Below are positions 621 to 58,722 of a stretch of DNA of 64,000 nt, piece by piece. The notes under the pieces are model-generated. The model did not search any database. It was given only the letters and a program-made list of their open reading frames with translations, and had not been told where the DNA came from. Numbering within the stretch: position 1 is the first letter of the stretch; each line of letters begins with the position of its first letter. The stretch is taken from the NCBI GenBank assembly GCA_021234155.1, contig JAJEKV010000038.1, forward strand, positions 5,131,625-5,195,624, written 5' to 3'. The DNA comes from Isoetes taiwanensis (Eukaryota; Streptophyta; Lycopodiopsida; Isoetales; Isoetaceae). The translations under genes and the position numbers were made by a program.

Positions 621-3600
621 TTGCATGTGATTTCTTTTTGTTTTTGTTTTGCACCTTTCTTTCTTTTCTAACACCTTTCTTTCTTCTTTGTTGCAAAGTG
701 GAAGAAGAGTGATGCATCCCTCAGGCCCCATTTTTGTTTCCATTCTTACGGTTTTGGACACGCCCGGGCATTTTTTTTTCAAATTGTGTGAAAAGCCTTC
801 GGCAATCAGCCTCCAAGCCTTCGGGCATCCGTACATACAACCGTTTTTAATGAAATCAAACAGTTTTCTTTATAAACTTTGTCTTCAAACAGTTTTTCTT
901 CAAACAGCTTTTCCAGACATAAATTTTTTGGATAAAATCAAACTCAGATTCTCCAATTATTTTGGCTCCAAGTCTGTTTTCTAAAATTTTGTCTCTCTAG
1001 AATTTTGTATCTCAGAATTTTTGTCTCAACAAAGTCCGGGGAACACTATAAATCAACCACATGAGAAATCTCACGATGCATCACAAAGAACCATAGGAAA
1101 TTTTCCTATACCTAAAAAAAAATTCCCCAACCTTACAAGTCATTTTTTTAGCCTTGATAACTTTGCCTTTAAAATCAATTTTAAGTTAGCCTATATAAAA
1201 TTTCTAAATTCTATTTTTTTCGAATGCAATAAATGGAATAAAATGTCATGGAGAATTTATTGCATGAAATGCAATATTCTCCATATATACCATATACATG
1301 TCATGTCCAAGGGAAGACCGTATGCAGTGTTAATTCAAGCAATCAATTATTCACGCTTAACTTTTTCTAATTGTGCCTATATAAATCCATTTTACGCTCT
1401 CAAAGTTCCTACATTTTCTTCCTTCCTTCATAATGATTTGCCGGTTATGCTTCGGTGTTTGGATCCGCCGTCCCGAAATCTTGGTGAGCTTGGATTTATA
1501 TTCATCAATGTTAGATGTTTGGTTTCGCAATTCTAACTTACTAAAAGACTCCGCTTTTTGTTCTCAGAATGCATCCGTAGCAGAGGAAATCGAGACTCGT
1601 AATTAAAACCAAAAGCAGAGGACTAAGGTCTCAGAATCGAAAAAGCCTCGAATTAAAACCACAAGCATAGTCCTCCGCTCTTCTAATCCTTCCACCCGTA
1701 ACTCAAGGTTAGTTTTCATTTAGTTTTAAGTTGCATCTCATGGCGGGTTTAATCCAAGAAGACAAGCTTTTGCATTTGCTCGAGGCGAGGGAAGCAGATG
1801 ATGTTTATGAAAACCGTAATAGTTTTTATAAACTTCATCCGCTTTTTTTTTCGAAAATTCTTGAGTTTCTCTTCCTGAATTAATCATGCTATTGCATGCA
1901 AGTTTCTATTATGAATAAGTGTAGTAGAAAGCATTAGAAAAATCTGAAGATAATATTTGAAACACGCTAAGCGTGTTTTATGGTAGCCTTGGCTTCTTCA
2001 ACATGAATACACGCCGGGCGCATTCGCCAGGAGGGAGAAAAAAAAACATGCATGCTTAGATAAGTAAATAGATAAAGGCCCGGCAATTTACATACCGGTC
2101 AGCCGAATGCACGCCGAAATGCAGTATAGTTTTTCCTATATAGCGGTTTTTTATTACTGAAGCAAACAATTGTATCCCTACTTTCAACTTTTTACGCTTA
2201 AACACGCGAAGGGCGTGTTTCTTAGTTTCTAAGTTTATAAATAAAGAAATATAACACGCCAGCGGAATACCGATAATTCGCCACTTCCTATTGATAGATG
2301 CCGGGTTACATTAATCACCCTAAGGTGACGAAGATGGATTGGAATTACATTTGGGCCAAAGAATCACCACGGCCCCCCTCCAGCTGGCTCCACCTCCAAA
2401 CTGCTGAACCGCAACAGCACCGGGCCTCGGTGAGCACCGGCCTTTGCAACCCCGGAGTACTTGGATCAAGTAATGATGATGGCAAAGAGCGCCAGTGGCA
2501 ATGATAGATCCGGGCTGGGGCCCTTTGCAATCGCATCTGAGGCTCGCCTCTTATCTAATCACTTCGAGAATGCAAGACATGCATTGATCGAGAGTGAATC
2601 TCGCGATCCGGCACCGAGATTCAAAATGAGGAGCCGTTTTCTAGTGGTTAGCCTCTATGCCCGGATGCCCCAACATCTAACCACTACCACAAAGCGTATA
2701 ATGATGCAATGGAGATGGCTCAACCAATGGAACCACTACCGCAGCGCAATAATGCATGCATTGGAGGTTCAACCAATGGAGCGGTGAGGTGGAGCGGAGC
2801 AGGAGCGGAGGTGGAGGTGGAGCAAAGGGGTGGTGGAGCTAGAGCCCGGTGTTTTTGCCGGGTTTTACCGTAAGAATTCACTATGCCCCGCAATGGAAAT
2901 GGGAGATCGATAGCCCAGCTACTCCAAGAGACCGGGCTTGAAACAAAAGAGGTCCGGGATTTTGTCCGGTTTATCCAAATTTATCCGTGACATATACAAT
3001 TGTAATCTTTTTCCAATGAATACAACAAATTTTGTCTACTTCTATAGTTCTACAATGTAATACATGTTACATACCTTTTTAAGCGGTTTCTTGGCCATGC
3101 AACAAATGTTCCAACACTTTCTCCAACCAGTATCCCCACCGGTGTTCAAGAGGTAAAGCTTCATCCATAGCTAAAGAAGAATCATCAGAATTCTCGGACA
3201 TACTTATCCCCTTCGGCCGAATTCCATGACGGTTTTCATACCGGATCGATGGAGTCGATCTTGCATAATCCTACTTTCCTTTTCCTCGATTTGTAGTTAA
3301 CATGAAACATTCATCTTCTACATCGCAGAAAATTGCTATTCGATTAACCTACTATTGGAAATTAATGTTCAAGCTATTGAATGAGATGAGTACCAAATTC
3401 TCAGAGCCATTCTTGAGAAGCCGATTTGAGTCTCCGGAAGCTGATTTGAGAAGCTTAAGGCGCTATGGAAACTCCTGGCTATCGGGAAAATTCAATTAGA
3501 AGAAAGATTAGGTTAACTACGCTTAGGCTGATAAATTTGGCGGATACTTTTTGGGTAGATTGGTTTTTTAAAAACTTAATGAAAGAAGTCTACGGACGGG

Positions 3601-4300
3601 TCTTCGCCATTATTATTTGTATGTGTCAAGAATATTTCAAACCGCATTTTGTGTTTTCTTGAAATTCAAATTTCTCTATTTCTCGCATGTAGAAAAAGCT
3701 ATTTCTTCGAAAGCGGCGGCGCGATATCCGAAGCGACCTTCCGACTGCTTCTTAGGCTTACTCCTGAGATGTCTTCTAAAACCGAGGTGGTCGAGGCCCG
3801 GACGGGGGCAGGGAAGCGGTGGAAGAGGAATCTCTAAACCCGCCTTCTCAAGCTTCGTGAGGACGTTGATCGTAATACACAGAACCCTATTCAAGGTATT
3901 TAATTTGCCACGTATACACACCGTGGTGGAGAGTATTATGCTTGCATGAATTTGAGATATTTCCTTGCCTTCGTGATAATATGCTTTGCATGAGTTTGAG
4001 TTATTATGCTTTGCATGAATTTTTAAGCATTAACATCGATTTAATGCTTTCGATTGTCCGGATTAACAGAGAACATAATTTTGCTCGCTTTTATATATAG
4101 AATATAGCGGTGTTAGACAGGTTGGAGATAGCAATGTTCAATGAGGTTAAATAGTGTGAAATATGGATTCATGAAGGGTATGTAGCTTAAAATGTGGATG
4201 CAAAATAATTTAGTTTCAAATTAACGATAGCATGGTCAATAATAGGAGATACCAACACGCCAAGCGCGTGATTTGTACTAATTTAGGTTTAAAATGCATG
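620..4300 (+). other. Element A interior without recognisable coding (copy 1)
   Basis: AT-rich DNA without a protein I recognise. It contains isolated CACGC/GCGTG palindromes at 1961-1978, 2201-2220 and 4253-4274. A G-rich stretch at about 2780-2840 reads ggtggagcggagcaggagcgg and is purer in copy 2. Short open stretches such as 1021-1536 have no family resemblance and are not kept in copy 2. It may hold introns and small exons of the rightward gene. Confidence 0.4.
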
Positions 4301-4379
4301 GCGTGATTTCTTGTTCCAAAAGTACTCTAAAAAGTGCTCATCTACATTTGCAGTCTTTGAAGAGGAAGAAAACCCCTAC

Positions 4380-7300
4380 TAATTCGGGTTCTAATCCCGC
4401 CAAGAAAGCAAGGGGCGACGACCCGTGATGCGGTACCATATGATCTCACCTTAGATGATGAAGGGCCGATTCTTATAGCAACCACTCGACCACGCCGCCC
4501 TGAAGAGGAAATGGGCGAGGGTGCCGAGTGGTACGCGTTGACCTTGCCAAGACAAATGGCAAGCTCGACTTAACTCTCTCTCGAGGAAAAAGGAAGCGCA
4601 TAAGATGGCCAAACAAGGGATCCTAATCTCTTGTGAGGAAGAGGATGACACCAACCGCAAATTGCTCTTGGAGATTACACGTAGCGTAAGAAAGATCCTC
4701 GCTTTCGGACTTACTCAATCGTAGAGCCATCGCATACAAGGATACGCTCATGAAGAGCAGATGTGAACGGTGAGACATGTTTTAAGTATGGTTGGCCAAC
4801 CAATGTAGCGATTACGCCAATATCTATTTGCCAAGGGGTTACAAATTATGCGTAGGCATGTTCACTAAACCGACACCAAGTCACTATTTGCAACAAGCTA
4901 GGAATTAAATTTGACTTGAAAGCTTCTAAGAGGGTCCTAGATCTAGGGAAGAATGTTCAACCCGCGGCTTGTCGAAGGCATGGAGGCTTCGCTTTTGAGA
5001 ATGAACAGACAAAGTGGCGCAGACTAGAGGCCATGAACAAGCTGAATAAATACTCGACCATTATCCACCGGGTCTTAAGGAAACTTTTTATGATCCATGT
5101 GAAGTCCCTCATCCGCTTCACCAAGCTCCATTTATGTTAGCGTAAGATATGATCCAAAGACATGCCATGGAGATTGTTCGAAAGCATGATTAGTAATCCG
5201 AGGTCAAATGCCTATGCCAAATGGATGTGCTACCTTGGGATATGATCTCGAACAAGCTCGGCCGTGGTGGGCGAACGTCCCGGAGATATTATTAAGTGAT
5301 GATATTAAATATGTCATCATCGACGGGCAAAGATTCCGTTGAGGCACAAAAGGCCATCATCGGTGCAAAGAACAAACGGGCCAAAAAGTGTTCTACAATC
5401 ACTATGCATTATAGGAGGTGTCGATCTTGGATGCCAATACTTCACTGCGCAGATTTGGTCGAGATTAGTGCAACTTTGAATGAAATGGGAAGACATTTCT
5501 ATACAAAAAGGTAATCAACTTGGTTTCATAAATTGTATTCACGCCCGGGGCGTGCTTTTCAAATCAAACCAATTCCGCGCCAGCGTTTTTGAAATCAATC
5601 AATTCCGCCATTCATTCCAAGTCAACCAATTGATTTGAAAACACGCCCGGCGGAATCTCGATTGATTTGAAAACATGCCCGGCGTGGAATTGGTTTGATT
5701 TGAAAGCATGCCCGCGTGAATTGCATTAGTAACTTTATTCATTTCACGCCCGCGGATTTTTCTCTTCATCAATTCTATTCAAATCGCGCGCGTGTTTCTA
5801 TTCTATGATCTTGATTCAATATCCGTACTATTGCGTCCATACGTTGAACAAGCGCGCCACGCGGCCAACAAGTGGGTGGAATATGGCTGCCCATTGCCCA
5901 CCGCATTGCATGGGGTCAAAGTCCGAGGCATTCAAGCTCAGCCGAGCTGACTCGCCGCAGACAATTATACGAGGAGAAGAAGAAGACCGCAAGAAAATCA
6001 AAGAAAAAGGTGGTGATGACATTGCGTGATCCTTTTCCGAAAAGCTCATCCAAAGTCGTGACCAACAGCGATAAAGATTGTGTTTTGTAAGGAGGCGTGA
6101 TGGCTCAAGTGGAATGAATTCAGGACGCTTTATGCACAAGGGAAGCCGCCGATACTATGGGTAGGGTGCCTCCTCGTTGATGTAAGCATCTTTGACTTGA
6201 ATGTGACAGATGAGAAAGACTCAGGGCTAGACGCCCCGAGACCATTTGGGTTTTAGACCGTCTTAAAGAAGGAAGTCTTATACAAGAAGGGTGCTTTCAC
6301 CAAGGATAGGATGTCCTTCGCTGAGTGCCGCACCATGTAAAGGATGTAATGACAATGAAGTCACCGGGAGCCGAAGTTACAAAGGCTATCTGGGGATGTG
6401 GCATTATCCGAAATTGGATTCTTGGACAAATACAAGGTCAAGAATGATGACATCAAGAAGTTTGTATTCGGTCAAAGGACTTCCTAAAGAATTGGAAGGC
6501 TAAAAATACAAAAACATAAGGAGACTCTACCCCTAAGGTACCGGGCCGAAAGTTGAGAAGAAAAGTGGCCCTTGTGAAGAAGATTACCGGAGAAGACGAC
6601 ACCGCCCAAAGATTCAGTCCCCATTGGGTACAAAGGTCTCTTGCCGATTCAACTTGGCCTTAAAAATATATCACTCTTTGTGTTGGACAAACAGGGTGGG
6701 AGAGGAGATATGGGCATGAACCGTAAGGACTACAAAAGAGCTTCTTTACCAGTTGTATAGGATTGACAACCCAGAGGTCCTTCACTATTGTCATCGTTTG
6801 TCCTTCAGGTGAGTCACATCTCGATGCACTATCTGCTCTCATGATCCGGAGTGCCTCAAAGTTTATTAGGGAGGGATGCCTAATATATGATGTTAAGGAT
6901 AATGAGTCGCGAACGAATCCGGATGGCACATGTGATCTTTATTATGATATCCATGTCATGCCGCCGGCGAGGAATATGATATTGCTAAGGCCAAGGGTGA
7001 CAATAGCGCAGCATGGGAATGTTTTTCTTCTAGATGATCCGGACTTAAGAACTATATTCTTTCATACGGATCCGGATCGATCGGGCCGTAATCGATGAGT
7101 CAAGAGGATGAGGATCGGGACCCCCCTAAGTGGGGAAATCTGGCACGAGCTACAAACTAAGGAGAAGGGCCCCTTAAATAAAAATGGATTTCCCCGCCTA
7201 TGGTCGCTTACCTGTTCGAGGCATTTGCTCCAATTGATACAACCCGCTTGGAGCTTCATGTTGGAGGTTATATTGCCCGAGAGGCTCTTATGGGTGCAAG

Positions 7301-9045: not shown

Positions 9046-10470
9046 GCATAATAGTGAGCTTGTTCTCTAGATCGCAGAGTGAGGCCCTCAGAGAGCACCT
9101 TCGAGATCCCGGGTTCACCATCCCGGTAAGCATATTAGCCATAATAAGAATAGATAGGGGGCAAGGGGACACCCTTGTCTGATTCCTCTCCTGAGATCAA
9201 AGAGACGAGAGGGTTCTCCATTGATAAGCACAGAGGCCGAGGCCAGTTTATTCATACCCATGGAAATATTGATAAATTGTTCCGCAAATCCCATGTGAGC
9301 CATTATCTCCTTCAAGGCCTCCCATCTCGTAGAGTCATATGCTTTTCTAAAATCCATTTTGATGAGCACGTAGTGCAGCTTTTGACACCACCCGGTGCAG
9401 CCCTCTCGAAAGGGCGATAGTTATCCAGGATGTACTGTTTGGAAGGAAGGCGGTACTCCCCGCCAATAACCCCCTGCTCGAATAGGCTTTAATCGGTTAG
9501 CAAGCATCTTCATAATAACTTTATAGAGAGCATTGGTCAATGCTATGGGTCTCCATTCACCCAAAGATTGGGGCCTAGGGACTTTGGGCACCGTGTGATG
9601 AAACCCGCTTTGCCGCTAGGAGATGGGTGCAATGTTTGTGTGGCCTGGCACCCCTAATCGCCGAGGAAGTGGGAGCCTAATATATCCCGAATTCTACAAA
9701 AAGAATTGGAGGGAATCCATCCGACTGGGGATTTGCACGAAGCCAAGGAACACAATGTCTTGTAGATTTCATCATTTGTCGAGGTTGTAGGAGGATTTGA
9801 TTATCGGCGATCCTGTGACTCCGTAGTCCAATCTACTTTTGCCAACCATTGGGTTATCTCAGAATCTTATATGATGGCGAGAGGGCTCTTCTCGAATTGG
9901 GATTGGAAAACTTCCCCTCGATAAAAGCTTGGATTTCAGCCGGATCACAAGAAGACATTTTGAGATTTGTCCTTGATAGATGTGATGTTTGTTGTCGGCT
10001 AGCCTAGCTCCCCGCCATTCGAAAAAAGCACTTGGAATTTTCATGATCAAGTTCCGCGCGATACCATTTTGTTTTGGATCGTCTTGCAGCTCCCCTTTGC
10101 TTCCTCTTCTTCAATTGCTTTAGCTTTCCCTTCAAGTTCATCCTCTCGGAGTGCATGGCCTGATTAAACTTGGTCCTTTGAATAGGCAATGTTTAACTTC
10201 TCTCGAGTTAGTTGTGTAGACCGACTCTTTTTCTTGCCTAAAATGCATGGCTCTGTTCTTGCCCAGTTTAATCCACGCTTTCATGGAGTTAAGCTTTTTA
10301 TGGACCCGTGCTTTCATGGAGGGGAGGGAGAAACCTCATTACATAATGTGCCAAGGGCTTCCCTAAAAAGGGTTCTGAAGGCCTTCTTTCCTAGCCGAGG
10401 TGTTGAATTTGAAGGGGACATTGCCATTTTTCCGGGTCGTGGGGATGTCTTCCAAGACCATTTTTTGGGG
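9046..10470 (-). mobile_element. L1-like LINE, 5'-truncated, N-terminal part of reverse transcriptase (copy 1)
   Basis: Minus-strand reading with KMDFRKAYDS (fingers/palm), GEPSRLFDLRRGIRQGCPLA (RT box with RQGCPLAP) and, upstream, the WLGKKAF and MKAWIKTWGKNRA segments typical of the endonuclease-RT linker. It stops after LTIMQ at 9046, where element A is inserted. The 5' end meets the kinase fragment at 10470/10471. There is no endonuclease domain, so it is a 5'-truncated copy. The frame is broken several times relative to copy 2. Confidence 0.85.
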
Positions 10471-10800
10471 CAGGAACCCTTGAGCATCAACATTGCTATC
10501 TTTGAAATCCCTTTCTCCATGCTCACATTTGCAGATATTCTTTTGGCCAATTTACGTAAAACCAACATCATTGGAGATGGAGGATTTGAAACCGCTTATA
10601 AAACAATTCCTCCTGATTTGTGCAATTGTTGTGAAGAAGCTTAGCTAGGCTAAAAATCAAGGTAATCTGGGAGTTCCTTTGCAGAGATGCAAACTCTTGG
10701 TAAAGTTAAGACAAAAACCTTCTCTCCCTTTTTGGGTATTACTCCCTGGCAGATGAAAAGTTTCTTTTTTATGAATGGCAGAGGAAGTGGATAAGAAGGT
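10471..10800 (+). pseudogene. EMS1-like LRR receptor kinase fragment (copy 1)
   Basis: Plus-strand reading opens QEPLSINIAIFEIPFSMLTF ADIL, then KTNIIGDGGFETAYK. This is the juxtamembrane region and glycine loop of an EMS1/EXS-type LRR receptor kinase, whose usual form is GDGGFGTVYKA. It continues with VVKKLS (the ATP-binding lysine) and a stretch resembling EFLAEMQTLGKVK before decaying near 10800. The loop Gly is replaced by Glu and the frame breaks after PPDLC. Neither the LRR part nor the rest of the kinase is seen. It abuts the LINE 5' end exactly, so the LINE probably landed in an already existing kinase copy. Confidence 0.8.
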
Positions 10801-12300
10801 AATCTATAAATATCTTAATTCCATGTTGTACTAGAAAATTCTAGTCATGCTATTGTCAATAAGTCTATTCATCTCCATTTATACTTTCTTAAGACGCTAC
10901 GCCAACAAATTAAGTTTTTTTGCAAAGAAACCTATTTCTTAGCAACTCTAAGATTATCAAGCCCTTTGATTTTATTGGTGTTTTGTTCTCAAAAGTTGAC
11001 ATCAATACATCCGTAAATGGACATCTTTAATACATCTAGGGAAATACGCCTCGAAAGATTGCTTCTATCTCTATCGTTGGTCGTTGATTTTGTACCATAT
11101 ATGAATGTTCCATCCAAAATTGACCTCAGTTAAAGCTATGGAAAACTAGGTGATTTTTATGTTCTACATCTTTAAACTAATGATATATCCTTGCTCTATG
11201 GTATTGTTAGACTACGTGTTTTGGACTATGTCCTTATTGCTTTATGATTTTTGTTTATTAAAATACATTTTTTTGTAGAAGGCTAGCATAAGAGTAATCT
11301 CGATAACTATAGGATATAGAGCTAGGTACCTAATTTGATAGGTTCGAGATTTTACTTTAATTGCGAAATGGTATCTAATCTTAAAATGACAATGAAAGCA
11401 GCAAATTGTAATGCCGCATAAATTCTAGCTCCTATTTCTATGTGGTTGTATTTGCAAAGATACAACTTGAGTTCTACACGGACATACAATGACTTACATT
11501 CTAGAAAATACAACTTGAGTTCTACAAGGACATACACCGACTTACACTCTCGAAAATACAAAGGCCGGTGTATGAAGTTATGAAGTTAATATTTTTCCTT
11601 ATCCAAAGCTTACATTTAATATTATTGGCTTCATAGAACTTACAAAGAGTTATGCGAAGTTATTGAAGACCTGCTCATTATTCTACTTTAACATGCTTAG
11701 AAATTTAATTCGCAAGGGTATTGCATCATTCCCCTAACTATAAGCTAGAGATTGTGCAAGTGATTACATCTTAAACTTAAGCTACTAGAATCCAACAACA
11801 CATCTAGGCTATAAGTTATGACTCTAGCATTCTTACATCATATTGATACCATTCTTACACCATATCAATGAAATTTCAAATTAGCACTCTTGGTCTTGGT
11901 CATCCACTCGTCCAAACTTAAAACATAGAAATTGCATCGCACCGCACCCCCTCATCAATGCTCATATATGGCTATGATCTCTAAAGGTGTCATATCTAGG
12001 TCTTGAACTGTTGTTGATGCTTTAGAATATAAAAACAACAAATAACGCCTCTTCCTACAAAGTATGTAATGTTGCGTGGCAAAAAGAATAATAAAAATCT
12101 CATGTCGAATCTCAAGTCATTAGCACCATGCTAGAAATAGGCTTGGTCCATGCACAATTCATAAACAAAGGAAAATAAAACAACACAAAACAAAACCCCC
12201 TTTCAAACCATTAATAACCCCAAACACATCAAATGACCCAACAAGAACCATGAAACGAAACGACAAAGAAGAAACATGAAAACACACTCTGGCCAATCAA
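10800..12300. other. AT-rich stretch, nothing recognised
   Basis: No open frame with family resemblance on either strand, apart from faint decay of the kinase in the first bases. A doubled segment at about 11460-11560 (ttgagttctacangacatac twice) is a short direct repeat. The matching region in copy 2 is 59050-60530. Confidence 0.5.
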
Positions 12301-12350
12301 GGGCAACCCTCCGTCTGCAAAGACCTTGTTCCATTTGTATAAATTTTAAT
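12290..12350 (+). repeat. Dispersed repeat with AGGGCAACCCTCCG core, left copy
   Basis: Core agggcaaccctccg followed by the TTGTTCCATTTG segment. The reverse complement lies at 24420-24480, where the shared sequence runs over about 45-50 bases. The duplicate at 60530-60590 reads gtgcgcag after the core, closer to the 24.4-kb copy. Possibly one end of a 12-kb element, or just a scattered family. Confidence 0.6.
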
Positions 12351-12653
12351 TTGATGCATTTGCACAGTCCAAAATATTTCACAAATTATCGCCTCATGCC
12401 AATGACATTAAGTGGCGCTTACGATAAGGAAAATGAACCGTTTACCAAAGATTACCTTGTGCCATTAAGCAAAGATTAGCTTGATTTCATTGATGATGGT
12501 CTTGTGGATAAGCTAATGCCGGTCCAATTATCAATTACAAGAAGAGCTTTAGTAGATGGAAATTTCAATGTCACCCAAAGGTAACACATTGATAAAACAC
12601 AGTGGTTAGAGCTTTACAGGCATAACATTTTCGGGTTGTGCTTTAGTTAGCTG

Positions 12654-12820
12654 AGAAAATGCTGCTGAGGTTCATAATGTTTTGGGCAACTTGAACAAGA
12701 ATTCACCTTCTCGTTCATTGCAGTCTAGACAGAAAACTCAAGCTTTAGTTACCTTTGCTGTTGGATTTGCCTGTTGTATGATCTTGTTGTATCAGAAAAT
12801 TGAAACTTTGGCTACTGTAT
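12654..12820 (+). other. Exon-like open stretch with a hydrophobic segment, unrecognised
   Basis: Between two stops, this reads about 55 residues, opening ENAAEVHNVLGNLNKNSPSR and containing a hydrophobic run ALVTFAVGFACCMILLY before the stop at TATV. The same bases occur unchanged at 60894-61060. A second hydrophobic reading follows a tgcag at about 12866 (GGLLAMVGTMILVSY). The pattern (polar region then one membrane helix) would suit a tail-anchored membrane protein, but I do not recognise a family and it may be chance. Confidence 0.25.
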
Positions 12821-13059
12821 GATCTTCAAAACTCTTCTGATCAATATTGAGTTTTGTATTGCAGGGAGGCCTTCTCGCAATGGTTGGAACTATGATTTTG
12901 GTATCGTATTGTATGATATATTTTGCCATGCTTGAGCAGCTTAATTGCATTTAGTGGTCACGTTGCTATTTTGGTGTGTTTTGGATGATTTTTTGCCATG
13001 CTTGGAAAAAAAAAAAGTATTTGTAAAGTGTGGATAACAGACATGCCTCTTTCTATTTT

Positions 13060-13985
13060 CTTGGATTTGGCGGAGCGCGAGGCGGTGCAACTAGCAGAAA
13101 AGGGTTGTGCAGGATTTCTTTGCTGATCGTTTTCTGATTAGGGCTTGTTTGTTTTCTGATTGAAATCTTCTGTTCCTGGGCTTTGCAAATCCAATTGACA
13201 GTAGATCGTTGCTCTTTGCAATTAAGAGGCAGAGTCATTCAATCCTTTGTTTTTTTGCGCAGATCGGCCGCTTTATGTTGCCAATTTGTGTTGTTCTTCA
13301 TATTCTTTATTGCGGGGGTTTGCGCTTGGGCGCCAGGCCATGATTTGGTGAAGTCGGTGAAGCCATGATTTGCTTCAAATCCTCCAATGGGCTTGCTTCA
13401 TTCGTTTCTTGTATAGCACAAGGTCCCTTGTTCCTTTGTTTTCATACTTTTTTAGATAACAAGAGCATGATGCTTGGTCGGTTGCACAAGCTTGAGGCTT
13501 CAAAAATGCCATCTTTCTTTGTTTTTGTTGCTCTTTTTAATTCATTTTGAACCCTGCCCAGTTGTGGCAGAGCTAGCAGGTGGTGCTGATGTTTCATTCG
13601 GGCATTCCTAATTGCTACCAAGCAGTGGCAAAGGATTGATTCTGGCAAGTAGCAACTTAGAATAGGCTTCATGCTAACCATTGACAATTTTAGTTTTTCT
13701 TTTTTTGCATTTTTGTTGCTTCCAACCATATTTTTGATCGACACCTTAGGAAATGGCATGACATTTTTTTTCCAAAAGGATGGTAGCCGTCCATCTGGTA
13801 TCATATCCAGGATATGCTCCAGATCCATGGCTGCCATTCAACGTCGCCCCAAAAATAGTAAAAAGACATCTTATATTATAATGTTATATCGTATTGAATG
13901 GATCAAGCCCTAATTTAAATGGCTGAGATCATCTGATTGAAAATGAAGGCCGAGATTTATCGCACGACTTTCCACTACCGTGATT
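13060..13985. other. Unassigned sequence; longest open frame judged chance
   Basis: A 131-codon minus-strand frame (13442-13837, opening MAAMDLEHILDMIPDGRL) survives almost unchanged in copy 2 (61686-62078). It has no domain I know, and the two copies are near-identical at DNA level, so its conservation says nothing. Plus-strand Phe-rich frames here are T-rich low complexity. Confidence 0.4.
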
Positions 13986-13989
13986 AGTC

Positions 13990-15655
13990 ATGATTTGATT
14001 TCTTAAGGGGAAAGGAAAAGGAAAGGGAAGGTAAGGCACATGTAAAAGGGAAAAGGGAAGGGAAAAAGGGCATGGGAAAAAGGCAAAGAAAAGAGGAAAA
14101 AGCAAGGAAAAAATGACATGGAAAAAATGAAAACAAGAATAGAAATAGGGAGGGAGAAAGGAAAGGAAAAAGGGAAGGGTGGGAAAAGGAGAAAAATGTA
14201 AGGGAAAAGGGTGGGAAAAAGATGACGAACAAAGCATATGAAAAAAGGGAAAGGGAAAGGAAAAAAGAGAAGGGAGATGGAATGGGGAAAAGGGAACTTG
14301 GAAAAAAGACACGAGGAAAAGGGCAAAAGGGAAGGGGGAAAGGGCATGGGAAAAAATAAAAGAGGAAAATGGTGAAGAAAAGAGGAAAAGGGAAACGAAA
14401 AGATAGTATCGAAAAAAAAATGGAAAAGGTTAGAGAGAAAAATAGTGAGGAAAGAGGAGAGGGGAAGGGGAAAATGGCATGGAAAGAGGGAAAGGGAAAG
14501 GGGAAAAGAAAAAGAGAGGGAAAAAAGGAAGATAAAAAGGCATCGAGAAAAGGGAAATAGGGAAAGGGTGGGGAAAAAGTTGAACAGGAAAAAGGTGGAA
14601 GAAGGAGACGAAAAAAATACATGGGAAAAATGAAAGGGAAGGAAAAAAGAAAAGGGAGATGGAAAGGGGAAAAGGGAACCTAGAAAAAGGGCACGATAAA
14701 AAGGGCAAAAGGGAAGGCGGAAAGGGCATGCAAAAGAGGGGAAAAGGGAAAGGGTGAAGAAAGAGAAAAAGGGTTAGGGCATCGAAAAAAGAAAGGGAAA
14801 AGATTAGAGAGAAAAGGTGAGGAAAGAGGAGAAGGAAAAGGAAAAATGGCATAGAAATAGGGACAGGGAAAGAGGAAAAAAAAAAGAGGGGAAAAAGGAA
14901 GATAAAAAGGCACTGAGAAAAAAGAAAGAGGAAAGGGTGGGAAAAGGAGGAAAAGGGAGGGGAAAAGGGTGGAGAGCAAGGAATGGAAAAAGAGGAAGAG
15001 AGCAAAGGAAAAAGGGGACGAGAAAAAAGAGAAGAGGGAAAGGATGAGGAAAGGAAAAAAAAGCATAGGAAAGGGAAAAAGAAAGGGGAGAAAAGGGGCA
15101 AGTGGAAGAAGGAAAAGGCGGAGGAGGATGGGGAAAAAAGGAAAAGGGGCTCATAAAAAAGGTGGAGAAATGCGAAGGGAAAGAGGCATAAGAAACGGGA
15201 AAGGGAAAGCGAAAATGAAAAAGGAAGGAGGAAAGGGAAAAAGGGCACGGCAAAAAAGCGAAAGGGTGGGAAAGGGAAGGGAAAGGAAAAAAGAAAAGGG
15301 AAGCGGAAAAGGGGGAAAAAAGGCACCAGAAAAAGGGGAGAGGGAAATGGGAAAACAGAAGGGAAAAAGAGCACAGGATAAAGAGGAAGAGGGTGGAAAA
15401 GGAAGAAAAGGCCACATGAAAAGTTGAAAAGAGGAAAGGAAAAGAAAAGGGAAAATGGGATGGGCGGGAAAACGATGAAAAGGGAAGAGAAAAAGCCTAT
15501 CAGAAAAAGGAAAAGGGAAAGGGAAAAAGGGGAAGGGGAAGGGAAGGGGATGGTGAAGGGGACTAAAAAAAAGGGAGGGCGGGAGGGAAAAAGATAACGT
15601 GCAGGGAAAAGGAAAAAGGAAAGTGTGTAGGATAATGAGGAAAAAGGAAAACATA
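13990..15655 (+). repeat. 1.66-kb polypurine tract (degenerate GGGAAAA), copy 1
   Basis: The plus strand is almost pure A and G for about 1.6 kb, made of irregular GGGAAAAG-type units with scattered cat, gac and tt interruptions. Long minus-strand frames of Phe, Pro, Leu and Ser (up to 314 codons) and plus-strand Lys/Glu/Arg frames are translations of this tract, not proteins. In copy 2 the tract shrinks to about 0.5 kb and has a different interior. Such tracts can form triplexes and are hard to assemble. Confidence 0.92.
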
Positions 15656-15659
15656 AACT

Positions 15660-16205
15660 AGAGCAAAACGCAAAGGGAATGGTATTAAATGCACAAAAAC
15701 CTTTTACAGCTCAACAACACTGGGTTTGGTTTCTATTACATTGATTTATGAAAAGAAGACTGGGCTGAATAGGTTTCCGTCCACATAGGTTACCAACTTA
15801 TGCCCAGCAACGCTGGGCACCATTACTAGTATCTGATAGTAAGAGGCGTTGTGCTCTATGAAGGGCCGTAGTATATTCCAAAGCACCTATAAAATTTACC
15901 TTCCAAGCGCCTAGCCATTTTAAACGGCGAAAACACATTTTCAGCTAACTTAAAAAGTCCCTTAGGAGACCCGAAAAAAATAATCTCTAGACTTGGTCGT
16001 GGTCATGGGATAGCGCAGTGAATTCATAAATTCCATGGCACCCACCATCGTTTATGGTGTTATCAACATGGCTATTATTCTTATCCATCTTCCTTATATT
16101 ACTCAGTCTGTCAGTTCTGAGGCTCTGGCGTTGCCTCAGAAATAGACTAGTCTAGGTTGTTGTGCGCGTATAGATGATCAATGCCCAAACTTACTAGATT
16201 GCAGG
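15660..16205 (-). other. Possible 3' tail of the element B methyltransferase gene
   Basis: The minus strand downstream of the stop at 16207 holds a short reading around 15990-15900 (FGSPKGLFKLAENVFSPFKM) that could be a further C-terminal exon, but I cannot join it. An isolated GCGCGTATAG half-palindrome lies at 16160-16172. Otherwise nothing is recognised. Confidence 0.3.
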
Positions 16206-16861
16206 CTCATAACCAGCCTTTGAGTGTTGTCTGAACCATTCCAGCCTGGTTACTAGAATGGAAAACAACAATTCTCCACAAAGGGGCAGTGGTCAATTTA
16301 ACAAATCTGTTAATTAAAGAATCAAACTCCCCATATGTGAAGGGCTTGTCATCCCCTCTGCTGTCGGGGAACTTGAAACCGTAGGGGATATCAGCAATGC
16401 ACAAAGTATAAAGCTGAACTGGTAGACGCTTATCAATATAAATACAGTTTCCTTGGTACACTTGATACAAGCAGTCCTAGGCAAAAATAGTGAAGCTCTC
16501 GTACTCTGAAGGAACAAATGTTTCTTCGGCCTTTTTTTATTCTCGTAGTTTGGCGTGCTCGTACTTGCAAAGTCTGACCAATTTCAAGAAACTTGGTGGC
16601 ACAGGGCCTTTCTTTCTCTGCAAAAGACATTAAATAAACTTTAGACAAGAGGCAAAAATTAGACAGCCTATACGCGCATAGCCGAAATGCTTAACTAATT
16701 CGTGAAGTTGGAAGCATATTCATTGATTTTATGATCCGTAGAATAAGTTGGATATAAGCTCCTCACTTTATCCCACGAATCACAATTCAAGTGTTGCATC
16801 AGCTGCTATTGACAAAGAGTGTGCACAATCTTTTTGGGTGCAAAAAAATTAATTAATGCAT

Positions 16862-17405
16862 TAGGGATTTTTTGAGATCATAAAAGGGCCTTCTAAGAAT
16901 TGCTGACTAAGCTATATGAACTACCAATCAGAAAACAGAACTGGTAATCCAGTCTGCAAAACAGTTATAACTAACTCACTGGATCACATTTTCTAGCATA
17001 AGTGTTGATAGAAAAGTCCAAATGAGCTCTTGTTTGGTGCAATAGATAGATCTCATTGAGATCTTTCCAACCTGGGTGGTTTGCATATCTTTTAGCCCCG
17101 TAGGATGGTAAAAAACAGTAAAAACCATATTTTTTGGAGTTTTGACAATCATAAGTGGTTAAAATATGTGCAAAGCACCTAAGATTAGAAAGATCTCAAT
17201 GAGATCTATCTATTGCACTAAAAGAGAGCTCATTTGGACTTTTCTATCAAGAGTTATGCTAGGAAATGTGATCCAGTGAGTTAGTTATAACAGTTTTGCT
17301 GGCTGGACCCGTCAGGCTCTGATTTCTGATTGGTAGTTCATTTATCTTCATTTGGTTTAGTTGGCATGTTTTGAAGGCCCTTTTTTAATCTCAAAAAAAC
17401 CCTAA
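16862..17405. mobile_element. Foldback/MITE-like element in the intron of the ParB-methyltransferase gene
   Basis: The left arm (about 16862-17090) and the reverse complement of the right arm (about 17405-17180) match over more than 200 bases. Both begin cattaggg followed by a T run and gagat, and share aactaccaatcaga, actaactcactggatcaca, gaaaagtccaaatgagct and atagatagatctcattgaga. The loop is about 100 bases. No coding inside. It lies between the exon ending near 17443 and the exon at 16617. In the second copy the window ends inside the left arm. Confidence 0.85.
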
Positions 17406-18640
17406 TGGCTGCAGACACAAGATAAACAAGAAAAATACTTACTGCTTAAACTCTCCAGCCATTGTTTCCAAGGTAAACTGCCCATCCACAACCTTCTGCA
17501 AGACTTCGCAGATTTTTTCTTCATTTTTTAAGCTTTGCATTTCCCTCCAGGGCTGAATTCCCATATCTTTTTGCCTGCTGGAGTCACCCATCTTCTTTTT
17601 GTCTTTGCCACCATCTTTGCTTCCACCCTTTGTCTTTATTAACCCGTCAACCCGCATGTTGAAGATGTGTTCTTGCAAGTCCCAGACTCATTGCCAGAAG
17701 CTTAGCTTCTGTGTCAGTGACGCCAACATAGATGAAAGCAAAAATCTGAGAGAAGCAGTGTTTCTTTGTCTCTTCGTATAATTGCCTTCTGGCCTTAAAT
17801 CTGTGTGTCCCACCCAGTACATAATACTTGTAGCTATCATGCCACGCCCTTTTTCCCTCCAAAGAATCAAGGTGCCAGTGCACTAGAGCCACCAGAGGAC
17901 TTAGAACTTTTTTTTTTGGTTTTCTTCACTTGCGATTTCTTTTGCCTTTTGGAATTAGGCACCACTGTCTCCATCTCCTCTTCCTTTTCTGACTCTGAAC
18001 TGGAGACAATGACTTCTTCTTGGTTTGGTGGACTTTCTGGCCTTTCCTCATCTCTAAATCGTGGGTAGCTCTTTCATAGTGCATTGGAGCACATTGTTTA
18101 TGATTGTGAGCAAGTCCTAGAAAAGGTAAATAAGGTTAGAAATTCCTTATAAAGATATGGAGAACTCACAACCCACTTTAGCTTTCATGTCTGATTCGAC
18201 ATACACCTGAAGATCTTTAGGCAATGACAAACTTAGCTTGAAAAAAGAGATATCAACCGAAAAAACTTGATACTGACCCTTGTAACTGTCGTGAACTTGA
18301 TGAAGCCCATTCCGAACAACTTAACAGAGAGAATTCTACCACATTTCTTGAACTTATCAAGCTTGTATTTTGAATGTCCAACCATTGAACAAACATAGAG
18401 AAACAATGCTTGGTTGTCCCTCACAACAAGCCACTTCTGGTTTTTGCAGAAGTAAGACTGATCTGCTGCAAGTTGAAATGAATTTGGATATGTCTCAAGT
18501 TGTTGAGACTTTGGCTTAGGGTTTCGCTTCCTATAAAAAATACAAGGGAAAAAATAGGACAAGTCCAACGAAAGAAAGGCCTAACCTATGCGTGCATGGA
18601 GAGTAAATACAATCACAAGCAGAAAGAAAACAAGGCCATG

Positions 18641-18760
18641 CCTATGCACGTATACCCCAGCCTATGCGCATATAGCCAAGCTTATGTTCGAATAGCCAAG
18701 CCTATGCACGTGAAGCCAAGCTTATGCGAGTATAGCCAAGCCTATGCATGTATAACCAAG
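18641..18760 (+). repeat. Six tandem 20-bp units with CTATGCGCATAG-like core (element B)
   Basis: Exactly six units of 20 bases starting at 18641, 18661, 18681, 18701, 18721 and 18741. The consensus is cctatgcgcatatagccaag; each ends in ag and carries a variant of the CG-centred palindrome. They lie in intron 1 of the leftward ParB-methyltransferase gene. No spacer-like unique sequence separates them, so this is not a CRISPR. Confidence 0.92.
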
Positions 18761-19021
18761 CGAACGACTGCACAGGCAATGTGCTAGCACAAACATGACA
18801 AACATGACGATATGTAAAAAACCAACCATTTTGCACTTCTAAGCCATGGAACAACCAATGTTTCCATACTAAACAAGAAAATATTCCTCACATAAATGCG
18901 CCAAAACAGGACTCACAGCATAATTAAATACTTGTAAACTAGCAACATTAGGTCATGTAATTTAAGTTTTACTAAGAAAAAACAAAGAAAATGGCAAAAA
19001 GATGTACCTTTCTCCAGACAT

Positions 19022-19606
19022 CTTCAGAGGCTCTATGCAGATTCTTATAGAGAAGGTAGATGACTTTCAGGAGCAGAAGAGCGAAGGCGGAGCAGTGGCG
19101 CTTGGCTGGTGAAGGGGTATGCGCAAAATGATTCCTCTTTTATAGTATATGTAATGTCCATAGTTTTTTCATGTTTGTCTATGGAAATGGACATAGAGAA
19201 GGTCAGAGTAACATGTCAAGGTAATTCTAACAAAATCGTTATAGAGGGTGGTCACAACTTTATGTTGCCCATGCAAGAGCCTATACGCGCATAGGCTAAA
19301 CATGTTTATCCTATACGCGTAGAGGATTGAGATGCTTCGCCTATGCGCATATAGGCTATCATAAGTCCTTTACGAGTATACACAGGTTATCTTCAGCCTA
19401 TATGTGCATAGGCTATACGTATTTATTCTATACGCGTATAGGCTCGAGATTCTATCATCAGTCCCGTACGCGTATGCACTGGTTATCTTTACCCTATATG
19501 CATATAGACAGAAATATCTCTTGCCTAGACATGTGCAGAAAGGACAATCAACTTCGGTTTCCTAATTCATCTACTCTTTTACAGGGAATAAACAAAGTTG
19601 TAGGCC
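19022..19606. promoter_or_regulatory. Shared divergent promoter region of the element B genes
   Basis: This 585-bp gap separates the leftward ParB-methyltransferase ATG (19021) from the rightward DUF7869 ATG (19607). The right half is packed with CG-centred palindromes (19278-19510), so a protein binding them could act on both genes. TATA-like tatagtatat lies at 19140-19149. Inference only; no transcription start is visible. Confidence 0.45.
19278..19510. repeat. Cluster of AGCCTATACGCGCATAGGCT palindromes (element B)
   Basis: About eight copies in 233 bases: 19278-19297 (agcctatacgcgcataggct), 19310-19325, 19339-19357, 19366-19385 (weaker), 19395-19414, 19429-19445, 19463-19480 and 19493-19510. 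Most are near-perfect inverted repeats centred on CG or TG. More copies lie at 16664-16683, 22382-22398 and 22432-22450, that is across the whole element B gene pair. Confidence 0.85.
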
Positions 19607-22324
19607 ATGATGCCTCCAGAAAAGCCAGCAGGTTTACGTCGTGGACGTTTTAGTACTCCTCCTCCCATGACCCCAAGTGTTGACAACTCAGATCGACTAC
19701 CGTATTTTGATTCTCCGTCCCTGTTAAGAAGTTTACAGAATGTGGATGGTATTTTTGCCTTTCGTACACCCTCTCCGCAAAAACATCAACTAGTGTCTCA
19801 ACCGATCTTTGACACTCCTTCTCCATCTCCCTCTCTGGAGGTGCTCCGTCCCCAATGCTGCCAACTCTAGGGCCCTAGTCCAGAATGTACAACACTTCTT
19901 CTCCCGTATTACTGAAACCTTCTGAATCTTCTATTTTTGAAACACCATCACTGTTGGTTGAGCTACGCCAGCCTTTGCAAGATATCATAGACAATTCACT
20001 TCGAGAAAAGCAGTACAGTGGTCCAAGCCAGACTTCTAGTGCACATGACTTAGCAATCTTAAGACGAAACGCTAGAACATTGTTTTAGGACATACCAAGT
20101 TCCTCAAATAATAATGCGAATGCGCAATCTGGAACTGCAGAAGAGGAGGTGCCATTGAGCACTTCACAAGCACAGCCACCATGTTTTGATGGAGAAGAAT
20201 CCTAATTCTGCAAAGAGGTTTAGAAGAGATCACACGGCAAATGCAGTCAAGACTGTATTGCATAACAAACTTATGGGTTTACGACATATGCGACACCTTA
20301 GGAAGTTATTTTGTTGCCAGAGAAATTGCATTGCTAACTTGAAATACTCTTCTATATGAGAAACCTTTGGTTTCTTGTTCATGTCAAAAGGTGATCAGGA
20401 GTCTTACTTAGCGTTGCATGTAAGGCCAAAACAGAACGGTTGCTTTTCATACTACGTGGAGAACTACAAGATTGTTTGTCAACTGGCCTTTAAAAAGTCA
20501 CATGTCAAGGATACAAAAACGCTTAAACAGAAATCCTTGTATTGATATTATCCAAAGAAGGTGGTCGGAATGCACTGTCTTTTAGCAAAGGCTTGGCTGG
20601 TAGACTTCTTTGATTTAACTATGAGAAGCTGCCAAATAATCTCACTTAACAGATAGCATTGTAGAAAAAGAAGTTTACGCCATGTACAGAGATTTATTCT
20701 CATCTTCCTCACAGAAATACATTTCCTACTCATATTTCTTGTATATGTCTATAGTAGTTGATGGAATGGATCAGAAGAAAACGTCCCTTCCACATTTTGT
20801 TAATGTTCCTAAAGACTTATCCGAAGCTGACTTTCTAAAAATACATTTGGTTGGTGCAATGGTATTCAACGGATGCATAGATTGGCAAGTTTTGATGTTT
20901 CTGAACATATACGGTGATCCTAATCTTACAGTTACAATTATTAACAAGGTTCTCCTGTAAAAGAGAAATTGCCTTCTGTTCTTTATGTACAGTTGGACAA
21001 CACGACTAGAGAGAATAAAAATCAAATGCTATTTGCTTACTGTGCAATGCTGGTTGACTTAGGTGTCTTCAGAAAAATTAAGGTTGGCTTTCTGCTCGTT
21101 GGTCACATGCATGATCAGATTGATCAAATGTTTACTCGGTTTTCTGCGAGATTAAGGAAAAAAATGCACATTTTATGTATTCTTTATCTGCTGTGATTGA
21201 ACAACTCCGAAGCCTACGATTGAAGCGCTGAAGGAAACTTTTGATTTTCGGGAATTTGTATTTTAAAAGCAGTCTGGTAGGGGATCAACCATTAATCAGT
21301 TGAACAACTTGACGTTCCAGCATCATGTGAAATTTTTTCAGAGTGAAGGAAGTATATGCCTACAGGGAAAGTTCTTTGTTTCTTCTAAAGAGTGGTTCCC
21401 TAAAGAAGCTTTGCCTTATTTGAAGTACATCCCCAAAGCTTGTCAAATGTCACGTGCTCTTCAGCAACGATTAAGAAGCTCTATAGACTTTACTGATAAG
21501 AACAAGACAAAAAATCCCATGGTCTTCTTAAAACACATGGAGAAGAACATAAGATTGACATTCAAGTACCTTAAGGAAGAAGATAAGTCTTGGTGGGAAA
21601 TGTTCTTTGCAGACATGGCTGATGTAACTAAATCCTTGAACAACACTATATTAGAAGTTCCCTTCCGATGGCCTGAAAGACAAAGTTCTATCAATCAGGA
21701 GACAACAGATCAAGAGTCCACGTTCAATACGATAACGAGAAAGAAGCAGAGAATTGTGAAATGTATCTTGGGGCTAGATGTGCGAAAAAGACAGAATCTC
21801 CAACTCCTGAAAAGCTTGCAGATCTTACCAAAGGCATGTTGATTGTGGTTCCCTCTATAGATGACGATAAGAATAGGCCTTTCTAGATTGCAAGGGTTAG
21901 GGACATCGTTTTAAAAGATAATGTATGTTCCCTCTACTGTGAACGTTCAATGGTATGCTACCATAGCCGATAACCCTTACATTGGTCGATATGATCCATC
22001 CCTGTTAAGAAGGAAAAGAAGACAATGAATAAGAATCACATGGACAATATTACCTGAGCGAAAACTCAGCACCTGGTATATGACTTTACTCTTAGGGTCA
22101 ATAATAAGCTACGTCAGAAAACAATGGACTTGCTGAAGTCTATATGCGAGGAAAGCTCTGATGAGGACAATGCTGAAGGTGATGCTGCTGAAGATTATAG
22201 TTCTTCGAACTCCTCAAGTGATAATGAAGATTCTGACACAAGCACAAATGACGCTGAAGGTATGGATGAGTATGATGATAACCCAGATCCAGTGCTTCTT
22301 GGTGGCCGTAAATTTCTTCTGTAG
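19607..22324 (+). pseudogene. Element B rightward gene: DUF7869-type putative transposase
   Basis: The start at 19607 gives MMPPEKPAGLRRGRFSTPPP, a Ser/Pro-rich low-complexity N-terminus. Around 20264-20500 are GLRHMRHLRKLFCCQRNC and a region like DUF7869 N-termini. The core at 20682-21190 has DGMDQKKTSLPHF, then VLYVQLDNTTRENKNQMLFA and VGFLLVGHMHDQIDQMFTRF, the family hallmarks (D-x-MD-x-KT, LDN-x4-ENKN, GHxHxxID). A C-terminal segment (21300-21840) and WYATIADNPYIGRYDP near 21950-22000 follow. The end is acidic (SSDEDNAEGDAAED) and stops at 22322-22324. Conserved acidic residues suggest an RNase H-like nuclease fold; that is inference. Several frameshifts and stops break the frame, one just before LPSVLYVQ. 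Confidence 0.75.
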
Positions 22325-22381
22325 TGTTTCATCCTTAAAGGCATCATTTTGTTCTCTCGTTGTAATTTTGTAAAGCCAAAA

Positions 22382-22450
22382 TGCTATGCGCGTATAGTCC
22401 CTCAACAACGACATCTTTTGTAAAGTAGCTTCGCTATGCACGTATGGGCT
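22382..22450. repeat. Two distal element B palindromes
   Basis: gctatgcgcgtatag at about 22383-22397 and gctatgcacgtatgggc at about 22433-22449. They lie just after the DUF7869 gene, so the motif brackets the gene pair. No terminal inverted repeats were found around them. Confidence 0.65.
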
Positions 22451-22800
22451 CAATACATTTTTAAAACTCTTCTTTTTCTCTCTACCACTGTTTTTTGCTC
22501 TTTTTCTAGGTCTCAATTATTGAATAATTCGTTGTTCTTTTGTTTTCGGCCTTTTTGACATTTTGCATAATTTTTTCAAAATTTTCCATTATTTTTAAGG
22601 CTGAAAATGGCAACTCCATTTTAAATTCTGGCCTTCTTTATCTATCTTGACCCTAAGATTGCATTTCGAAGTTGAAATTTAGACCACTTTTTCCTTCGAG
22701 CATCCAAAAATAGCATGAATTTAGCTTAAAAATAACTTTTTTGTCGATTAGTACAACTGCAGATCATTATTGCAATTTTACTGTCACCTTGTTACGTGAG
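22450..22800. other. AT-rich spacer, nothing recognised
   Basis: No coding signal on either strand. A run of about 14-15 G bases follows at 22850-22863 and could be a collapsed or inflated homopolymer. Confidence 0.5.
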
Positions 22801-22879
22801 AAGAGTTGAATGAAGTTGCTCTTGAGGCACATAAAGAACAAGAAGGTTGGGGGGGGGGGGGGGATGAGTAATTATGTGG

Positions 22880-24060
22880 AGGTTTGTCGAAAAGAGACAT
22901 TGAAGCTACTGGATGAATTCAAGGAAATTTACAGTATATGAACAAGGTGTGGACCAATAACATCACATATTGGATAATTTGCACAAGGATATATCCACAT
23001 GCCAATCAAGGGATAAAAGCCGGGTATAGAGTCTTACCATGGCCACATGAAGAGAAGATTAGGGGTCTCTAAGCATACTTTGAGAGGAAGGCAATTTTTT
23101 TTTTCTTTTTTTTTTTGAAGAACTGTGTCATCAATATATTAAAAGAATGGTAATGTGAGAGGAAGGCAAATTGATTGGCTGATTTACAAGCTCATGGGTA
23201 TATTACAAACCCACATGTCATTTGATAGGTTCTTGAAGGATGTGGATTTTAAAACCAACAGGAGACAGGAGCACATAGTTGAGACAGCCATTATAGATGC
23301 ATGAGACCTTCCAGATGATGCTGTTAAATGGCTGAACTTCAAGGAGTGGAGGGCTGAGGTGTGAAGTCAGAATATGGATACCTGGAATGATAATTGAGAG
23401 GCATTATCTTACTTAGTAGATGTGGCATATGAGCATTGGTCCACCTGTGATTGTCCATGGGGTATGAAAGGGAATATGTGCAAGCACTAATTTAAGGTGA
23501 TCCGAATGATGGCCAAGTACGAATGGGGAGATATTTTAAGGTTTTGTGGGACTTTACATGGATCTAAAACTGACAGCTTTGTCCAATCTAAAGTGTTTTG
23601 CCGAGGCATATGATGACATCTTGCCTCCTTGAGAAGAAGGGCCATGCAATGGTCTTTCATCTGATGATGAAATTATGGACCAACGCATTGTTGGTTGTTT
23701 GAGTCAAAACACAAAGGTACTAGTGAGCACATATGACACAATGACGACAATCAAGGAGACCATAGCTAGGAGCCCTCAAGTATGGTCAAAAGCTAAGTTC
23801 CTTTTGGCTAATCAGTTGGCAAGGCTAAGTGGGAGCAAAATTGACAACACCATGGCCCAAGTCTAGCCATGGTAAAAGACTTCAATGGGAAGACCATTGT
23901 TAGACTAGTACCTTTCATGGAGAGCCGCAAAAAGAGGAAGAAGGCTAGTGCACTTAGCATTTTCTCAAAGGAATGCAAAGACCACATCACAAAATGTCAA
24001 GGTATTTACATTCATGCCAAAATTTACTCTTTGAAAGAATCTTTGTTTTTAGCCACATAA
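22880..24060 (+). pseudogene. SWIM zinc-finger protein remnant (plant transposase-associated type)
   Basis: Plus-strand reading from about 23160: QIDWLIYKLMGILQTHMSFD, then LPDDAVKWLNFKEWRAEV, then EALSYLVDVAYEHWSTCDCP with GMKGNMCKH, a C-x-C...C-x-H SWIM finger. A later open stretch (23675-23866, MDQRIVGCLSQNTKVLV) and MVKDFNGKTIVRLVPFMESR (23869 on) look like its C-terminal part, ending in a Lys/Arg-rich patch. Four in-frame stops fall before the end. SWIM fingers are typical of MULE transposases and of stand-alone plant SWIM proteins. An oligo-T/A stretch at 23094-23115 interrupts the N-terminal part. Confidence 0.65.
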
Positions 24061-52600: not shown

Positions 52601-52619
52601 AAGTACTCTAAAAGTGCTC

Positions 52620-58720: not shown

Positions 58721-58722
58721 GA

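Follow-up and report, generated by a model that had tools for sequence, protein, structure and literature searches.

The window analysed here (the whole 64,000-nucleotide stretch of Isoetes taiwanensis DNA, from an assembly of 1,658 Mb) holds two elements, A and B, and the start of a duplicated copy of B. Element B is a decayed, left-truncated copy of a DNA-transposon group that is abundant in the I. taiwanensis genome. It carries a leftward ParB-methyltransferase gene head to head with a rightward DUF7869 gene, a pair proposed in the first-pass annotation on the basis of short motifs. The pair is real: both genes were recovered with tblastn using the proteins of relatives, including the GGTHRFKA and IADIPYGF boxes of the leftward gene and the broken frames of the rightward one. 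Features, in window positions, are as follows:

16222-16620, minus strand: decayed N-terminal half of the methyltransferase domain, with motif IV (IADIPYGF); tblastn 41%, E 6e-29, against an intact relative in L029
16666-16683: single palindrome, GCCTATACGCGCATAGCC, from a site search of element B
16704-16814, minus strand: linker region of the ParB-methyltransferase gene; tblastn 51%, E 1e-9
17451-17687, minus strand: linker region after the ParB-like domain; tblastn 43%, E 4e-8
17686-17904, minus strand: ParB-like domain remnant (GGTHRFKA), alignable with relatives; tblastn 44%, E 2e-12
18233-18580, minus strand: probable N-terminal exon of the ParB-methyltransferase gene, an open frame resembling the N-terminal region of relatives by eye
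18640-18757: 6 palindromes arrayed every 20 bp within what is inferred to be intron 1 of the methyltransferase gene, from site search and shuffles
19279-19509: array of 7 palindromes (GCCTATACGCGCATAGGC-like), mostly at 30-bp spacing, between the divergent genes, from site search and shuffles
20207-22318, plus strand: DUF7869 putative transposase gene in broken frames, with VVDGMDQ, LDNTTRENKN and GHMHDQID; tblastn E 5e-80
22382-22449: two palindromes 3' of the DUF7869 gene, from a site search of element B
22762-22793: right terminus of element B, reading AACAAGGTGACAGTAAAATTGC from outside; homology to L038 stops exactly at 22793
45889-46807, minus strand: DUF7869 remnants of element A, a divergent lineage; tblastn E 1.6e-7 and 2e-5
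53468-53779, plus strand: exon of the element A partner gene (GGQTFVEA), an open frame with 2083 candidates genome-wide
63313-63909, minus strand: start of the duplicated copy B', methyltransferase part; tblastn, 96.7% identity to 15641-16905

Element B is a pseudogene copy, with frameshifts and stops in both genes, and lacks the exon encoding methyltransferase motif I as well as the left terminus; a left terminal inverted repeat (TIR) was sought at the window copy and not found. Its right end carries AACAA, matching the ends in other lineages. The element lies inside a large duplication, the second copy of which is offset by ~47 kb and begins within the window, and B and B' are therefore not independent insertions. 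Genome-wide, the DUF7869 gene of element B has 951 related candidates (nearest 96% and 90%). A profile match to PF25273 (E 1.5e-51) supports the DUF7869 side of the pair, and acidic residues are invariant in LQLDNTTRENKN and GHTHDQID; the DUF7869 profile had no match among PDB sequences. The protein is presumed to be a transposase, putatively of the DDE/RNase H-fold type.

By profile and motif order, the C-terminal domain of the partner gene is a beta-class N4/N6 DNA methyltransferase of predicted activity. It matches PF01555 (E 8e-19) and phrog_67 (8e-27), and profile matches spanning the domain were obtained with CcrM and MboIIA at about 1e-11 (CcrM, 2.9e-11). Motif IV (D-[IL]-P-Y-G) precedes motif I (DAFSGSGTT), which is the order of beta-class amino-methyltransferases and is shared with CcrM and MboIIA. 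Because the motif reads D-[IL]-P-Y-G, adenine N6 is predicted to be a more likely target than cytosine N4. Unlike CcrM and MboIIA, the Isoetes domain is transposon-borne, is encoded by an intron-containing gene and lies downstream of a fused ParB-like domain. The methyltransferase half of the original assignment was thus borne out, whereas for the N-terminal domain the best matches (TIGR03764 ParB, 1.5e-4; phrog_1033 ParB, 1.3e-3) weakly suggest a ParB identity. A PF02195 profile search of the I. taiwanensis genome and a search of PDB sequences with the ParB-like domain profile gave no match, and hhalign of this domain against three bacterial ParB sequences, with shallow profiles on both sides, scored no better than column shuffles. 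Scans of viral and prokaryotic contigs for DUF7869, ParB-like domain or methyltransferase relatives yielded none that could be confirmed, and the best-ranked tblastn matches in phages and plasmids were confined to the methyltransferase half (21-28% identity). Neither of two plasmid matches examined is a ParB fusion: the 828-bp methyltransferase gene of L072 stands alone, and in L071 the frame preceding the methyltransferase is separate and unrelated.

Divergent pairing of the two genes recurs across the genome, as the first-pass annotation had anticipated. All 17 methyltransferase-DUF7869 pairs lying 4.7-5.6 kb apart are divergent (~0.5 expected within 20 kb), and the ParB match is upstream of the methyltransferase match in 46/46 same-strand pairs. 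ParB-DUF7869 pairs less than 6.5 kb apart are divergent in 18/18 cases in the first set and 17/17 in a second lineage, in which the ParB-methyltransferase gene shows 43-61% identity by exon; for all 35 of these, the chance expectation is well below one. Of the 150 best DUF7869 matches, at least 57 lie within 15 kb of a listed partner gene, and some copies may be without one. In six relatives that are better preserved, the element measures 7.4-8.4 kb and has TIRs of about 25-33 bp that start with AACA (inverted repeats of 33 bp in L029 and 34 bp in L034) and, in 6/6, a target site duplication (TSD) of exactly 4 bp. Exact TIR ends number 1409, against 0 for the reversed control, and the ParB-methyltransferase gene lies within the termini on the strand opposite DUF7869. 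The group is best explained as cut-and-paste-type DNA transposons with relatives of ~8 kb, and the profile matches and pairing counts uphold the proposal that DUF7869 is coupled in it to a DNA-methyltransferase gene in divergent orientation. Purifying selection on the two genes is strong: in family-1 comparisons with dS saturated or >1, dN is 0.03-0.17, and dN/dS for DUF7869 is 0.05.

The divergent layout of element A recurs as well. DUF7869-A has 8061 candidates genome-wide, and pairs of the GGQTFVEA gene with DUF7869-A within 20 kb, the window's own included, are divergent in 33/33 cases (0.33 expected within 12 kb). A chance layout is excluded for the A lineage as for the B-type lineages. 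Element A shows no palindromes and no methyltransferase profile match, and its GGQTFVEA partner is at most a possible ParB or methylase gene.

Each B-type lineage has its own palindrome, arrayed in the divergent promoter and introns. The family 1 palindrome, AAAGTGTATTCCGGAATACACTTT, occurs as 1474 exact 24-mers (reversed control, 0) with a spacing peak at 41-42 bp (224/271); core positions are ~97-100% conserved, while the 18-bp spacers average 42% identity. That of lineage 2, CGGTATAAATTTATACCG, occurs as 4415 exact 18-mers (control, 0), mostly spaced 28-33 bp apart. In the window lineage the spacing is 20/30 bp, and element B has 17 sites, compared with 0-1 in shuffles. Where exons were tested, they contained 0/14 and 0/25 palindrome sites, and shuffles gave 0 sites.

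Together, the divergent methyltransferase gene and the regularly spaced, lineage-specific palindromes suggest an element able to recognise its own DNA and mark it chemically. In the proposed mechanism, a dimer or oligomer of the ParB-methyltransferase would bind the palindromes of its lineage, arrayed at roughly whole helical turns across the divergent promoter and introns (some spacings, 28 and 33 bp, are not whole turns, which counts against the scheme), and would methylate bases at the bound sites. The methyl mark would label the element as self, and may then keep the promoter clear of host silencing, in a manner comparable to VANC for VANDAL elements, or may license and autoregulate transposition. 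Judged from sequence, this scheme is on balance probable, and a VANC-like self-recognition or anti-silencing device acting through palindrome methylation is the most likely reading. The wider proposal, that vascular-plant transposons mark their own copies with 6mA or 4mC at phased palindromes through their own ParB-methyltransferase, as a self-versus-nonself system, is put forward tentatively, as a little short of probable.

Alternatively, the DUF7869 protein or a host factor could bind the palindromes. Because both genes vary with the palindrome across three lineages, the ParB-methyltransferase and the DUF7869 protein are indistinguishable as binders, and repeated sites are common transposase targets. 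The arrays might be transposase binding sites, forming a transpososome or regulatory enhancer in the manner of subterminal repeats, with the methyltransferase acting elsewhere or more generally. We regard this as rather unlikely: the arrays sit in the middle of the element, within the divergent promoter and methyltransferase-gene introns, rather than subterminally, and DUF7869 halves are exchangeable between elements with much older methyltransferase halves.

A further explanation takes the group as a Sola1-type transposon with a known ParB-methyltransferase accessory gene, DUF7869 as the Sola1 transposase and the arrays as neutral minisatellites. The Ectocarpus element Sola1-1_Ec32, also a DNA transposon, carries opposite its transposase a gene for a ParB-like domain and an N4/N6 methyltransferase, and its authors propose that the product binds and modifies the element's own sequence (PMC12477816). 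One published Sola1 element has 32-bp TIRs and a 4-bp TSD (PMC6875170), which, in a comparison by description, resemble the ~30-bp TIRs and 4-bp TSD of the Isoetes elements. Yet perfect palindromes and fixed spacing are kept while spacers diverge, unlike neutral repeats, and arrays are present in three lineages, each with a sequence of its own, making this combined account improbable. Sola1 membership itself is compatible with the self-marking reading, so that rivalry is limited to the neutral-repeat part.

That the palindromes act as hairpins or cruciforms, as structures or recombination seams rather than protein sites, is very improbable; stable single-strand folding is seen for two of the three palindromes and the level of divergence between L030 and L032 changes near the array, but the window-lineage palindrome folds no better than shuffles (z -1.1) and regular spacing indicates a protein on the double helix. 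The methyltransferase as a functionless passenger captured by chance, as gene capture does occur in plant DNA transposons, is rejected as hardly credible, contradicted by its presence in at least three diverged lineages and by strong purifying selection in comparisons whose synonymous divergence is saturated.

For self-marking by palindrome methylation, the closest functional analogy, and an analogy only, is VANDAL21 of Arabidopsis, in which the element-encoded VANC recognises its own family through motifs repeated in tandem within introns and upstream sequence, and these motifs differ from one related element to another (PMC5735166). The Isoetes counterpart would act on similarly noncoding, family-specific arrays. 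The VANDAL21 motifs are 9 bp and in one orientation, in contrast to the long Isoetes palindromes, and VANC causes loss of cytosine methylation and is not described there as a methyltransferase (PMC5735166), whereas the Isoetes elements encode a predicted one. Transposable elements encoding DNA methyltransferases also include retrotransposons of dinoflagellates and charophytes, but these acquired eukaryotic cytosine-5 DNMTs (PMC5890265), as opposed to the bacterial-type amino-methyltransferase in the Isoetes DNA transposon. The earlier view that no named superfamily has this content is not entirely correct, as Sola1-1_Ec32 already carries a ParB-methyltransferase gene opposite its transposase; with ParB-methylase accessory genes known from algal transposons, the class is not new. 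Sola1-1_Ec32 is 21.5 kb, compared with ~8 kb in Isoetes, and the passage describing it does not mention arrays (PMC12477816). Within the literature searched, the vascular-plant setting and the lineage-specific phased arrays appear to be new.

In the Isoetes group, a bacterial-type methyltransferase carried by a transposon is both abundant and strongly conserved, and a concrete candidate target sequence is at hand for it. DNA methylation at adenine N6 and cytosine N4 in land plants is disputed. Native Nanopore reads contributed to the I. taiwanensis assembly (PMC8566536), and with these reads and a candidate target the land-plant 6mA/4mC question is therefore directly testable. If true, self-marking by these elements would be convergent with VANC anti-silencing, differing from it in that the mark is written rather than removed.

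Genes encoding the presumed transposase, DUF7869, and an N4/N6-type methyltransferase recur as head-to-head pairs across the Isoetes taiwanensis genome (1,658,258,908 bases in 1110 contigs). Profile searches returned at least 150 matches to DUF7869 (PF25273) among 9912 candidates and at least 150 to N6_N4_Mtase (PF01555) among 1444 candidates. Among the matches listed, all 17 methyltransferase-DUF7869 pairs separated by 4.7-5.6 kb are divergent, as are 5 further pairs at 9.7-12 kb, and a single tandem and a single convergent pair occur at ~9 kb; ~0.5 pairs would be expected by chance within 20 kb. In 46/46 same-strand pairs the methyltransferase exon follows the ParB-like exon, and in 18/18 pairs closer than 6.5 kb the ParB-like exon is oriented divergently to DUF7869. 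Lineage 2, exemplified by element L070 and sharing 51% identity with family 1 (L029-L034) in the ParB-like domain and 43-61% in the methyltransferase exons, has ParB matches divergent from DUF7869 in 17/17 pairs at <6.5 kb. At least 57 of the 150 DUF7869 matches listed have a partner inside 15 kb. The divergent ParB-methyltransferase partner that the first-pass annotation had proposed for DUF7869 is found genome-wide, and so is the divergent arrangement it described for element A, the other element of the window: all 33 pairs of the GGQTFVEA gene and DUF7869-A within 20 kb are divergent, 30 of them within 12 kb compared with 0.33 expected.

The encoded proteins match the predicted families to differing degrees. 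DUF7869 is recovered at E = 1.5e-51. The methyltransferase assignment is supported, with matches to PF01555 (E = 8e-19), phrog_67 (8e-27) and, in the PDB, MboIIA (1.4e-11) and CcrM (2.9e-11); its motifs stand in the beta order, motif IV (D-[IL]-P-Y-G) ahead of motif I (DAFSGSGTT). DPPY-like motifs, unlike SPPY-like ones, usually indicate N6-adenine methylation. The ParB-like domain carries an invariant Y-V-L-G-G-x-H-x-x-K-A-R box and matches the ParB profiles TIGR03764 (1.5e-4), phrog_1033 (1.3e-3) and phrog_723 (0.024), but a PF02195 search gave no match and comparison with three bacterial ParB sequences scored no better than shuffles, so a ParB fold for this domain is only probable.

The six family-1 copies span 7.4-8.4 kb between termini of the form AACARGRTTGCRWATTAAACGRGAG or a near variant, and all six are flanked by exact 4-bp duplications (TTAA, CTTA, ATGT, ATAT, GGTC and ATAT; chance ~(1/256)^6). 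A published Sola1 element has 32-bp terminal inverted repeats and a 4-bp target duplication (PMC6875170). Target sites are often quasi-palindromic about the duplication, for example TTCTCATATGAGAA in L034. Exact family-1 ends number 1409 genome-wide (reversed control, 0), and related AACAA ends occur in other lineages. Among the places listed, the distance between opposite ends is in many cases 8.2-8.5 kb; in others it is 2.8-4.8 kb, and these are probably non-autonomous derivatives. One 4.3-kb element with family-1 ends (G000:C2:264860-269143), a probable non-autonomous copy, retains an exact palindrome at C2:268331.

When L029 is compared with L030 or L032, synonymous divergence in the exons for ParB and the methyltransferase has mostly reached saturation, with dN at 0.04-0.17; for DUF7869, dS is 1.3, dN 0.07 and dN/dS 0.05. 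Both genes have therefore been maintained as functional proteins. Between L030 and both L032 and L034, the DUF7869 halves are near-identical (dS 0.08-0.11) whereas divergence is much greater in the ParB-methyltransferase halves and reaches saturation in L032, which suggests exchange of element halves near the palindrome array.

In the window, the leftward GGTHRFKA/IADIPYGF gene and the rightward DUF7869 gene are both present in element B, as annotated, but decayed:
17686-17904, leftward gene, GGTHRFKA stretch
16222-16620, leftward gene, IADIPYGF stretch
20207-22318, rightward, DUF7869 gene
22793, right terminus

The methyltransferase motif-I exon and left terminus are missing from this copy, and by eye a MITE-like foldback insertion with long inverted repeats lies inside its methyltransferase gene (~16850-17410). 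Element B and the start of B', its second copy at the window end, are parts of one larger segmental duplication (~95-97% identity, offset ~47 kb) pairing 10000-14036 with 58256-62285 and 15641-16905 with 62734-64000; 19125-23831 is matched ~47 kb downstream, just beyond the window. A long purine-only-rich G/A tract (13929-15650) varies in length or assembly, because its duplicated copy occupies only ~450 bp between flanking matches compared with ~1600 bp. A dispersed repeat (88-89% identity) occurs at 3291-4574, at 51585-52854 and at L070 7540-8801, where it adjoins the element end.

Each lineage carries its own palindrome. Family-1 palindromes (24-34 bp, core AAAGTGTATTCCGGAATACACTTT; 1474 exact copies genome-wide, reversed control 0) occupy the divergent promoter and one methyltransferase intron, with centres 41-42 bp apart in 224/271 neighbours, about four helical turns, and ~97-100% core conservation against 42% mean identity in the 18-bp spacers. 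The lineage 2 palindrome is CGGTATAAATTTATACCG (4415 exact copies genome-wide; control 0). One element contains 25 of these sites, spread over the promoter, two methyltransferase introns and the 3' region and separated for the most part by 28-33 bp or ~40 bp. Element B has 17 GCCTATACGCGCATAGGC-like palindromes compared with 0-1 in shuffles: 6 lie 20 bp apart in the inferred first methyltransferase intron, 7 lie in the promoter, mostly 30 bp apart, and a few more occur elsewhere. None of the 14 sites in L029 or 25 in L070 is exonic, with exons making up 54-61% of sequence and the sites clustered and so not independent. A DNA-binding protein co-evolving with its sites would produce this pattern, in which three protein lineages have three different palindromes at the same positions.

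The first-pass annotation knew of no named superfamily with this content; however, a transposon with a ParB-methyltransferase accessory gene is an already known kind, exemplified by Ectocarpus Sola1-1_Ec32, in which that gene lies on the strand opposite the transposase and is proposed to bind and modify the element's own sequence (PMC12477816). The literature searched contained no description of such abundance in a vascular plant or of lineage-specific phased palindromes, and no mention of DUF7869, an absence that does not prove novelty. VANC offers the nearest functional parallel: the motifs it targets are likewise arrayed in tandem within introns and upstream regions, and related families have different motifs (PMC5735166). 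In the mechanism proposed here, the ParB-methyltransferase would bind the palindromes and methylate them, and the methylated arrays may mark the element as self, its promoter staying active or regulated.
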